DNA of 64,000 nucleotides. Source: Methanococcoides sp. (lineage in GTDB: Archaea; Halobacteriota; Methanosarcinia; Methanosarcinales; Methanosarcinaceae). Where the stretch lies: positions 62,001-126,000 of the forward strand of contig JAIORD010000027.1 in the NCBI GenBank assembly GCA_021108275.1, in the 5' to 3' direction. The translations under genes were made by a program, and so were the position numbers. Below are positions 39,521 through 42,627 of this stretch, piece by piece (position 1 is the stretch's first letter; each line of letters opens with the position of its first letter). Below the pieces are notes generated by a model. It did no database searches and was not told where the DNA came from. It saw nothing but the letters and a program-made list of their open reading frames with translations.

Positions 39521-40699
39521 TTATCCAAGTTTTCTCCCGTATATTTCTAATTTTGTATCATCAAGTAAAAATTCACCATTATTGTTGTCAATCCACGAAT
39601 TAATTTCTCTAAGCACATTAAGCATGAAGCCTTTATAAAACCTTAAAGACACGTCTGCTAACCTAAATTCTTGTGTTAAATTAGCAATATGATATTTTCT
39701 TTTTATATCTCCAAAATCAGTAACAACGCCTGTATCATCCTTGAGTTTTCTTATAAGTACAAATCGATTAGGTAAACTAGAATGTGGGTCAGGTGACATG
39801 AGCCCATAATTTTCATTATTTTGATGTAAATTATTTAATTTTTCCAAATCACCTCGACGACTTAATTCTTTATCATAAAGTTGTAATATCCCTATTAATC
39901 TTACAAGAGGAACATAATATTCATCGTCATAATTTTTTAATGGCACAATCTTTTCAAGTTGATCTGCCAATTTTTCACGACAGTCATAATATGATTTAAA
40001 CAACTGAAAACCAATAAATACAGACTCTTTTAAATGTGTTTCAACATCTGATTCATCCATATTTAAAACATTATTTATGGACGTCGTAGATGAATTATTA
40101 ATACTATATCCAAACAAAATTTTTGAAAAATCGACTGTTATACGAAGCAGTATCAAATATATTTCAAAATTATAATAATCAATCAGTTCATTAGAAAAGA
40201 TTGTTTTTTTATAATTTTCTGTTAGGGTATCGTATAACAAAGCTTCAATATTTTTTTTTACAACTTGTTTATTTTCAGAATTAATTGAATATTGGATAAC
40301 TCTTCTATTCCTAAGATCAAAAGGCAAATCAGAAGGTTTCCCATAATCAGTATTAAATAAGCAAATAATTCTATCCCAACCTAATTTTTTAGCAGCATAA
40401 CCCAATTCAATCAATACATTTGGATTGGGGGTCTTTCTAAATTTCCGACTAGTTCCATTGATTATACTAATATCAGCAACAAAAAAACTACACTTGTCAA
40501 TTTTTTTAAAAATAGATTCAGCGATGTCTGGAGTTCCAAGTTCTGATTTAGTATCTCTATCAAGGTTAAACTCCAAACTGTATTCTACTTCATTTTTTAT
40601 TTTTTTCATAGATTTTAATAAACATTTTTGAATGAAATTTCGATTAGTATTATTCGGCAAGTCTGATTGCCATGAAAAAAATATTGTATAGTTAGACAT
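39521..40699 (-). CDS. TIR/deoxyribosyltransferase-like domain protein, possible defence effector
   Basis: The 392-residue protein begins YTIFFSWQSDLP. It then has a PDIAESIFKKI...FFVADIS strand-helix pattern, and PNPNVLIELGYA with a conserved glutamate, followed by RRVIQY. This layout (residues 1-140) resembles TIR-like / nucleoside deoxyribosyltransferase-like folds, many of which cleave NAD or nucleotides in immunity. The C-terminal ~250 residues are helical with no recognised domain. The gene is visibly more A/T-rich than its neighbours and lies beside tRNA-Ser, suggesting transfer. It stands alone. Fold and function are inferred. Confidence 0.6.
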   Translation of the reverse strand: MSNYTIFFSWQSDLPNNTNRNFIQKCLLKSMKKIKNEVEYSLEFNLDRDTKSELGTPDIAESIFKKIDKCSFFVADISIINGTSRKFRKTPNPNVLIELGYAAKKLGWDRIICLFNTDYGKPSDLPFDLRNRRVIQYSINSENKQVVKKNIEALLYDTLTENYKKTIFSNELIDYYNFEIYLILLRITVDFSKILFGYSINNSSTTSINNVLNMDESDVETHLKESVFIGFQLFKSYYDCREKLADQLEKIVPLKNYDDEYYVPLVRLIGILQLYDKELSRRGDLEKLNNLHQNNENYGLMSPDPHSSLPNRFVLIRKLKDDTGVVTDFGDIKRKYHIANLTQEFRLADVSLRFYKGFMLNVLREINSWIDNNNGEFLLDDTKLEIYGRKLG

Positions 40700-41061: not shown

Positions 41062-41433
41062 ACATTTCCTCCTAACGATTTTAGTTACATATGTATATGC
41101 ATATATGTTGTAACTTGCTTATTTTAAGCACCTTCTATATAACATTAAGATTCCTTCCATATAAATAAAACACAAATACTAATTACGCACACAATTTTAA
41201 TTTTGTACTTCTTTTAAACATTGTACTTTATAACCCCATTCTAAACAACTCAGCACTAACAACTAACAGATTATCCTGTCTTAATTTTTGAAACAAGCTC
41301 CTTTGTACTATCACACGAAAGGCTTTGCTTCCCACATTCTCTTTAATAAATCCTATTCGCTTTTACATCACATTCTCTCTAATCTGAAATCTGTGTCAGA
41401 AATCTTTATATGTCCTGAATGTCCAATATTAAA
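41062..41433. promoter_or_regulatory. Intergenic region with palindrome, repeat and two promoters
   Basis: GTTACA...TGTAAC arms (41084-41114) enclose the symmetrical ATATGCATAT core, directly upstream of the zinc-ribbon gene on the minus strand. Farther right is copy B of the 38-bp repeat. A TATA-like TTTATAT at 41405-41411 serves the cytochrome gene. No further gene is visible. Confidence 0.5.
41279..41316. repeat. 38-bp imperfect direct repeat, copy B
   Basis: This is the second copy of the element at 40801-40838, 478 bp away in the same orientation with four mismatches. The pair brackets the zinc-ribbon gene. On the minus strand a short open frame (DSTKELVSKIKTG) parallels that of copy A and then stops. 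Confidence 0.55.
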
Positions 41434-42627
41434 ATGATTCATATGATGGGGAAAATCTTAAGATCAATAGTAGTAGTTACAACAGTATTGCTATTTTTAA
41501 CAACTGTTGTGGGGGCGGTAGACTTTGAAGAATGCGGCGACTGTCATGGGGATACTTATGCGGTCTGGAGTTCATCACCTCACGGGTCTGCATCCTGTGA
41601 TATATGTCATACAGCATCACCAGGCGGTTTTGATGCTCATATCTCTGCGCCGTTCACGTCCTCGCCTGACGTAAACCTTTCTTCTGAAGTTTGTGGGGAC
41701 TGCCATTCAGGTGTTTATGATGAATGGAACGAATTCGGTGAAGCTGACTTCGATATGGAGGCCATTGCAAGCCATTCCGAACCAACGGACATTGCTGAGC
41801 CTTATGTCTTGGATCGCGAAGCATCATGTACTGCATGCAAGAGCACTGATGGGGGCATATTGAACATTGCAGATGCTGAACCTTATGCTCTGGATGAGGA
41901 AGGCGTTCATGAGCTTGAAGTGGTGAGCGAATGGGCAATCTCATGCGCTGCATGCCATGATCCTCACGATACTGGTCCCCGTATAGATGATTCGATCCTT
42001 CTGTGTGGGAACTGTCATAATACCGAAGGTGCGGTCATGGACGGTAATACTCCGGTAGTAAGACATGCACAGTGGGAAATGGTAAGCACTTCTGGATATG
42101 TGGATGGCCCACATCCTACATCGATCGGGTGTGTGGACTGTCATATGGTGCAGATCTCTACTGATGAAGTTGTTGAAGCCGGTCACACATTCGATTTTGA
42201 TGCGGAACTATTGTCTGATCCTGATTCCGAGAACAACTGCAGTCTCTGTCATCAGTCGTCATTAGCCTCATTGATAGAAGAAAAGCAGGCACCTATTGAG
42301 TCTCACATCTCTGCTCTGAACTTATTGGAAGAGAAAGCAGGCAATGCACTTGAGAGCATCAATGGTACTGATGCATACGAGGAGCAAAAGGCCAACTACA
42401 ACAACGGTCAATTTTACCTGACAAAAATAGAGAATGATGGAAGCCTTGGGATACACAACCTTGAGACCGCTACAAATGACCTCGTGGCCTCAGAAGAACT
42501 GTTCAACAAGGTCATAATTGCAGGCGATGGTTCCGATGAAGCTGAAAAACCGGTTCCTGGCTTCAGTGCTTTCATATCAATAGCACTTCTTGCTGCAGTG
42601 GCTTTTATTGTAAGGAAAGGGCGCTAA
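41434..42627 (+). CDS. Multiheme c-type cytochrome with one CXXCK motif and PGF-CTERM anchor
   Basis: The ~397-residue exported protein has a signal peptide (IVVVTTVLLFLTTVVGA). It carries seven CXXCH heme sites (CGDCH, CDICH, CGDCH, CAACH, CGNCH, CVDCH, CSLCH) and one CTACK, the lysine-ligated type used at the active site of NrfA-like enzymes. The C-terminus (PVPGFSAFISIALLAAVAFIVRKGR in two parts) is a PGF-CTERM signal, so it should be anchored on the outer face. It may move electrons across the cell surface like Methanosarcina MmcA, but no rnf genes are near. A TATA box at 41405 makes the upstream ATG at 41419 unlikely. Confidence 0.85.
   Translation: MIHMMGKILRSIVVVTTVLLFLTTVVGAVDFEECGDCHGDTYAVWSSSPHGSASCDICHTASPGGFDAHISAPFTSSPDVNLSSEVCGDCHSGVYDEWNEFGEADFDMEAIASHSEPTDIAEPYVLDREASCTACKSTDGGILNIADAEPYALDEEGVHELEVVSEWAISCAACHDPHDTGPRIDDSILLCGNCHNTEGAVMDGNTPVVRHAQWEMVSTSGYVDGPHPTSIGCVDCHMVQISTDEVVEAGHTFDFDAELLSDPDSENNCSLCHQSSLASLIEEKQAPIESHISALNLLEEKAGNALESINGTDAYEEQKANYNNGQFYLTKIENDGSLGIHNLETATNDLVASEELFNKVIIAGDGSDEAEKPVPGFSAFISIALLAAVAFIVRKGR

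Follow-up and report, generated by a model that had tools for sequence, protein, structure and literature searches.

What might a methanogen do at its cell surface with a heme site whose motif ends in lysine instead of histidine? This question is raised by a gene of Methanococcoides sp. in a 64,000-nucleotide window (the whole stretch of DNA that was analyzed) of a genome assembled as 2.67 Mb in 60 contigs. The CXXCH pattern occurs at 391 sites in that genome. A preliminary description of the locus attributed seven CXXCH motifs and one CXXCK motif to a single protein, and this count is correct, with CXXCK being the fourth of the eight (Table 1). The start given there, 41434, is an internal ATG of an ORF spanning 41419–42627 on the forward strand. 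Relatives align from ATGs at 41443 and 41446, and the cytochrome gene may therefore start at either of these. The 402-aa protein matches five Pfam cytochrome families above their cut-offs. The nearest named relatives, at 94% and 91%, are a Methanococcoides MAG and M. seepicolus, respectively.

Table 1. Coordinates within the window of the cytochrome gene and of features read or predicted from it.
Feature	Coordinates	Strand	Remarks
Octaheme cytochrome gene, 402 aa	41419..42627	+	Start may be 41443 or 41446
Likely signal peptide	41443..41517	+	Hydrophobic stretch ahead of heme motif 1, read from sequence
Heme motif 1, CGDCH (C39GDCH)	41533..41547	+	
Heme motif 2, CDICH (C60DICH)	41596..41610	+	Counterpart of OcwA heme 3
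Heme motif 3, CGDCH (C92GDCH)	41692..41706	+	Counterpart of OcwA heme 4
Heme motif 4, CTACK (C137TACK), residues 137–141	41827..41841	+	Counterpart of NrfA heme 1 / OcwA heme 5
Heme motif 5, CAACH (C176AACH)	41944..41958	+	
Heme motif 6, CGNCH (C196GNCH)	42004..42018	+	
Arg215-His216, putative counterpart of OcwA distal pair His380-His381	42061..42066	+	Printed alignments, column counts
Heme motif 7, CVDCH (C238VDCH)	42130..42144	+	
Heme motif 8, CSLCH (C274SLCH)	42238..42252	+	
Three long C-terminal helices, ~residues 273–369, as in NrfA/OcwA	42235..42525	+	pLDDT mostly >80; fold matches
PGF-CTERM-like anchor, with PVPGF, a hydrophobic stretch and a basic tail	42550..42624	+	PGF-CTERM model score under cut-off

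Relatives of the protein were sought by profile and fold comparisons. When a profile of 27 orthologues was compared with solved structures, OcwA was the strongest match (3e-24), followed by a Carboxydothermus cytochrome (3e-17), NrfA (3e-12), MccA (2e-11), and ONR (2e-5). OcwA also ranks first (4.4e-5) in a Foldseek search with the predicted model. A second fold comparison yielded Z values of 12–14 for ONR/NrfA, 11.7 for OcwA, 10.4 for MccA, and ~8 for HAO, several rows being tied within the error of the method. The AlphaFold model (mean pLDDT 58) is good only in its C-terminal helices, and its heme core is modeled too poorly for the geometry of a pocket to be read from it; residues of MccA and OcwA were compared through printed alignments. 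By sequence, the protein is a member of the NrfA/octaheme superfamily, with the motif order of that superfamily, and is a family variant within it whose nearest kin is OcwA rather than NrfA.

OcwA of Thermincola potens (PDB 6i5b) shares with the window protein an NrfA-like core and three C-terminal helices, in addition to being the best profile and Foldseek match. It differs in having nine hemes, all of them CXXCH, as opposed to eight heme motifs with Lys in the fourth, and in an extra beta-sheet domain (described in the available part of PMC6703420); the window protein is ~120 residues shorter. The second-best profile match, over 353 profile positions, is the undecaheme S-layer cytochrome of Carboxydothermus ferrireducens (PDB 6qvm), likewise a surface protein but with eleven hemes by its title and CXXCH at the matching motif. 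MccA and HAO belong to the same fold superfamily. The window protein displays a HAO-like loss pattern, in that heme 2 is gone, but has Lys in place of His at the catalytic motif.

Kinship with NrfA and ONR is most apparent at the heme motifs. Motifs 4–8 align one to one with NrfA hemes 1–5, and CTACKSTD faces CWSCKSPD of E. coli NrfA, in agreement with the link drawn in the preliminary description between CXXCK and the catalytic heme of NrfA-type enzymes. The comparison with NrfA is modified by the closer match to OcwA and by the missing NrfA Arg and Tyr. None of the Arg positions is invariant across the 27 aligned rows, and the aligned Arg place differs between two alignments. Tyr is likewise missing three positions downstream of the third CXXCH of the NrfA type, where CGQCHVEYY of NrfA faces CGNCHNTEG. 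A genuine ammonia-forming nitrite reductase of the NrfA/ONR type, detoxifying or respiring nitrite at the cell surface, would account for a CXXCK that is fourth of eight, as is heme 4 of ONR in the available text of PMC12285233, for the match of CKSTD with CKSPD, and for the highest Z values falling to ONR/NrfA, albeit among rows tied within method error. Against this reading, the Arg and Tyr are missing, and the 16.5 and 11.6 bits obtained with curated NrfA models are far below the cut-offs (595 and 692.5, respectively). We reject a true NrfA on the basis of the triad residues and the family scores, and consider a surface nitrite reductase of this type highly improbable. According to the accessible part of PMC12498419, NrfA variants of the triad Arg and Tyr work at ~60% and 6% of the wild-type rate, and those of the His at almost none. 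The His or Tyr at position 216 of the window family may or may not stand for that His. Fast nitrite reduction by the window protein is unlikely because the NrfA Arg and Tyr are absent.

Matches were obtained in ten of the 11 genomes of the genus that were searched and in 34 of 111 genomes of the family (E <= 0.001), and a profile search at 1e-20 gave matches in 39 of 237 genomes of the class. Both Cys residues and the Lys are invariant in the aligned orthologues (27/27). These orthologues, together with six g10 paralogues, make up 33 Methanosarcinaceae rows in five genus groups (g1, g5, g8, g9, and g10), among which the residue is K in 28 and the whole segment is deleted in five. Excluded from both counts were broken copies in genomes G030 (L096/L149) and G050 (L098/L135), the duplicates L069, L079, L099, and L148, and L147 (G159), which is too different. 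The broken copies L149 and L135 contain internal stops, and the CXXCK of G030 reads VSFK. Beyond the genus, 65 non-Methanococcoides loci were found; out of these, 21 bacterial relatives were used in the trees and in one comparison, and 34 in another. All 21 aligned bacterial rows have CXXCH at this position, as do four of six archaeal rows outside Methanosarcinaceae. The other two rows, L144 and L145 (genomes G160 and G179), represent another family of the order and possess CXXCM and CXXCQ. Conservation of CXXCK among orthologues, raised as a check in the preliminary description, is thus mixed: close orthologues keep the motif, but five paralogues lack it and relatives outside the family mostly have CXXCH. 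The description had also called CXXCK rare among methanogen cytochromes; within Methanosarcinaceae it is the standard state (28/33 rows).

Maintenance of the motif bears on whether the site binds heme at all. The CXXCK site could be without heme and the protein effectively heptaheme, in line with the occurrence of CXXCM and CXXCQ in two relatives outside the family, from which it follows that the axial residue does drift, and with the makeup of the maturation genes. Genome-wide, one CcmF-like and one CcmC-like ORF match the Pfam CcmF/CcmC family, the former being followed by a second ORF that resembles its own C-terminal half; no second CcmF/NrfE-like lyase and no further NrfE- or CcsA-like match that might serve as a dedicated CXXCK heme lyase was found there. 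On the other hand, E. coli needs NrfEFG for CXXCK, whereas Shewanella NrfA is apparently matured without a dedicated lyase (PMC12285233, in its available text), and a missing lyase is therefore no bar to heme attachment. The Cys pair and Lys are invariant, their flanks are kept, and a distal residue pair, discussed below, vanishes only where the CXXCK motif vanishes. Relative to the window gene, dN/dS is 0.13–0.17 in five of nine comparisons, the other four being dS-saturated, and by this measure the gene is under purifying selection. A lost heme site, offered as an alternative in the preliminary description, is accordingly a poor fit to the orthologues; as the main reading it is rejected in view of the 27/27 Cys and Lys, the paired losses, and purifying selection, and a heptaheme protein is highly improbable. 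Because the CXXCK site is both unusual and kept through most relatives, it is probably a working reaction center, comparable to the centers of nitrite reductases in bacteria and of surface cytochromes that reduce metals.

The nature of such a center is suggested by OcwA. In the available text of PMC6703420, hemes 2 and 5 of OcwA are open and lie under the His-His pairs 281/282 and 380/381, respectively. In printed alignments, VHHPHKEM of OcwA falls on VVRHAQWEM of the window protein, i.e., on Arg215-His216, while SHHLQYPEW of OcwA and SHHPxxEEW of nonaheme relatives are matched by motif spacing only. Assignment to pairs 380/381 and 281/282 is our own count, and both need an offset of 29 between chain position and the numbering of the paper. 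On this basis, we infer that Arg215-His216 is homologous to the distal pair His380-His381. Position 216 is occupied by H in 20 of the 27 rows and by Y in seven; at position 215, R occurs in 15 rows, L in four, H in four, F in three, and S in one. OcwA and the window protein would therefore share an open heme at the counterpart of motif 4 with a residue pair at the same place, His-His in the former and Arg-His in the latter. They differ at the second open heme of OcwA, heme 2 under His281-His282, since the window protein is devoid of both heme 2 and its HH motif.

Ligand counts point to the same arrangement. Seven non-motif His residues are invariant in the 27 rows (55, 74, 119, 183, 232, 256, and 346). 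Given that seven CXXCH hemes need seven distal ligands, no invariant His is left for the CXXCK heme, which would then be without a distal His ligand and hence open. As OcwA has one His-Met heme (PMC6703420, available part), the pairing of His residues to hemes in the window protein need not be exact. Heme occupancy of all eight motifs and Lys ligation at CXXCK are likewise predicted from the motifs.

The explanation we favor, and hold to be somewhat better than an even proposition, is that of an OcwA-like multiheme oxidoreductase anchored at the cell surface, in which seven CXXCH hemes would act as bis-His wires while the CXXCK heme, five-coordinate and with Lys as its ligand, would be the reaction site, facing Arg215 and His216 on its open side. 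Relative to OcwA, the other open heme (heme 2 with its His-His pair) would have been lost. Methanophenazine is generally regarded as the electron source in these methanogens, and electrons from its pool would reach the CXXCK protein, probably via another surface cytochrome. Two exits can be envisaged: the CXXCK heme could pass the electrons to a small soluble acceptor such as nitrite, hydroxylamine, or NO, or minerals, shuttles, or partner cells could take them up from exposed hemes. OcwA itself exchanges electrons with electrodes and shuttles, reacts with hydroxylamine, and reduces nitrite slowly, at 1 per minute (all in the available text of PMC6703420); an OcwA-like job is proposed for the window protein by homology. 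Weighing against this explanation are the variability of the distal pair, a PGF-CTERM score below its cut-off, a paired loss at the CXXCK heme that goes back to just one event, the poor model of the heme core, heme-2-bearing rows that lack HH, and the failure to find a dedicated CXXCK heme lyase or a neighboring redox operon.

Alternatively, the protein could be a pure electron conduit for extracellular or interspecies transfer, with a CXXCK heme that tunes redox properties and turns over no small substrate. This is a possible but doubtful reading. In its favor, the closest kin of the protein are surface electron-transfer cytochromes, the turnover of nitrite by OcwA is slow, and the NrfA Arg and Tyr are missing. 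A wire, however, needs neither a motif Lys nor a conserved H/Y next to a heme that appears free of ligand, and CXXCK is described as the mark of the NrfA/ONR active-site heme in the accessible text of PMC12285233. If the OcwA-like oxidoreductase is the right reading, several genera of methylotrophic methanogens would have a surface enzyme that could pass electrons to soluble or solid oxidants, with implications for metal-dependent metabolism in sediments of marine and saline environments. No published description of the Methanosarcinaceae CXXCK octaheme family was found in a search of the openly accessible literature. The data set of PMC8351635, as far as its text is available, includes methanogen proteins with CXXCK, and the window gene may therefore be in its CXXCK list.

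Losses of heme sites within the family were also compared. All five rows without the CXXCK segment have also lost the distal pair, while their heme 2 and HH are kept, and all 28 rows with the segment have H/Y at 216. At the other site, HH is absent from every row without heme 2 (13/13), and also from six of the 20 Methanosarcinaceae rows that bear heme 2. The ten Methanococcoides rows have kept the CXXCK site with heme 2 and HH gone, except that L078 carries an additional motif, peculiar to it, at the position of heme 2. Heme 2 and HH are both present in the relatives L084–L089, L092, L093, and L095. Since heme motif and distal residues vanish together, each OcwA-type site seems to have been lost as a unit. 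One event for the CXXCK heme and three or four independent pairs for heme 2 make this suggestive, not statistical, and sign tests on so few independent events cannot reach 0.05. In the view of the authors of the OcwA study, heme 2 has been lost from HAO and heme 5 from MccA, and they propose that octaheme enzymes arose from nonahemes by loss of one or the other (PMC6703420, available text). Because Methanosarcinaceae keep a nonaheme form and both one-site forms, their proposal is testable within one archaeal family.

With regard to the origin of the lysine, the 33 Methanosarcinaceae rows are set apart from all other rows by a branch with 100/100 support. The state of residue 141 requires the minimum possible number of changes on the tree, a quick tree made without the motif columns agrees, and the residue is H in 25 of 27 rows outside Methanosarcinaceae. 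E. coli NrfA, when added, joins between the K clade (SH-aLRT 88) and all others (74); NrfA and a HAO-like row are very long branches. Consequently, the Lys may equally be ancestral, as opposed to having arisen separately from that of NrfA.

A place at the cell surface is likely for the window protein. The C-terminus consists of VPGF, a hydrophobic stretch, and then RKGR. The PGF-CTERM model, the anchor type named in the preliminary description, scores 14.4 bits, below its cut-off of 24.5. Pfam PGF-CTERM matches ten of the 27 rows, and PGF occurs in 20 of 27 tails but in none of six in a second Methanococcoides clade. Archaeosortases A and C are both encoded in the genome. OcwA is at the cell surface, and the signal-like start, PGF tail, and archaeosortase A suggest the same of the window protein.

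The gene is an isolated one. Upstream is a variable slot that follows a secY/adk/cmk region (names assigned by eye), and downstream are a DJ-1/PfpI-like gene (by eye) and an M1 aminopeptidase (Pfam). M. seepicolus has the same surroundings. No redox operon was found around the window gene or at eight further loci read at 12–13.5 kb, and a scan for promoters and terminators yielded nothing beyond what chance would produce. Possible electron partners are three further multiheme ORFs located elsewhere in the genome, which also have tails of the PGF type. The same genome encodes a 465-aa octaheme protein (L160, G000:C11, ~13.7 kb) that ends in a PGF tail and is distantly related to the window protein; its best NCBIfam match is hydrazine dehydrogenase (7.6e-28, far below the cut-off). 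At 39521–40699 (-), the window encodes a TIR-type domain protein (Pfam CAP12-PCTIR_TIR, 6e-6; PADLOC TIR effector, 4e-5). Its slot holds an unrelated 483-aa ORF in M. seepicolus and another in G005, and is possibly a variable defense slot. In G042 (g10; L151:2895-7801), the orthologue is convergent with ORFs resembling small and large subunits of a [NiFe] hydrogenase and its protease (by eye), with no ORF of at least 150 aa between them that could encode a cytochrome b.

A separate observation concerns the relatives that have heme 2. Six of the 33 rows, namely L090, L091, and L094 (g5) and L097/L148, L134, and L136 (g10), contain an in-frame TAG between heme motifs 2 and 3, all at a single position of the alignment. 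The same place is ATG in L137–L140 and Glu or Asp in nine type-A nonaheme rows, and the segment containing it is absent from the window protein. Among 19 rows with a native heme 2, 14 have HH and the other five all have TAG; L136 has both, and the independent events are few. TAG is the pyrrolysine codon in Methanosarcinaceae, and read-through would be expected because the frame downstream is conserved. Tentatively, and with more doubt than confidence, methylotrophic methanogens might thus be pictured as having a family of OcwA-like surface enzymes whose two open hemes have been dropped or re-armed separately: the CXXCK heme ligated by Lys, and the other beside a pyrrolysine that replaces a distal His in some relatives, with an ordinary CcmF possibly carrying out maturation. 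No prior description of pyrrolysine at a cytochrome heme site was found in the openly accessible literature; pyrrolysine-rich archaeal proteomes are reportedly the subject of recent work. If true, the picture would amount to a c-type cytochrome that uses pyrrolysine at a heme site, and to a Lys-ligated reaction center on the outside of a methanogen.
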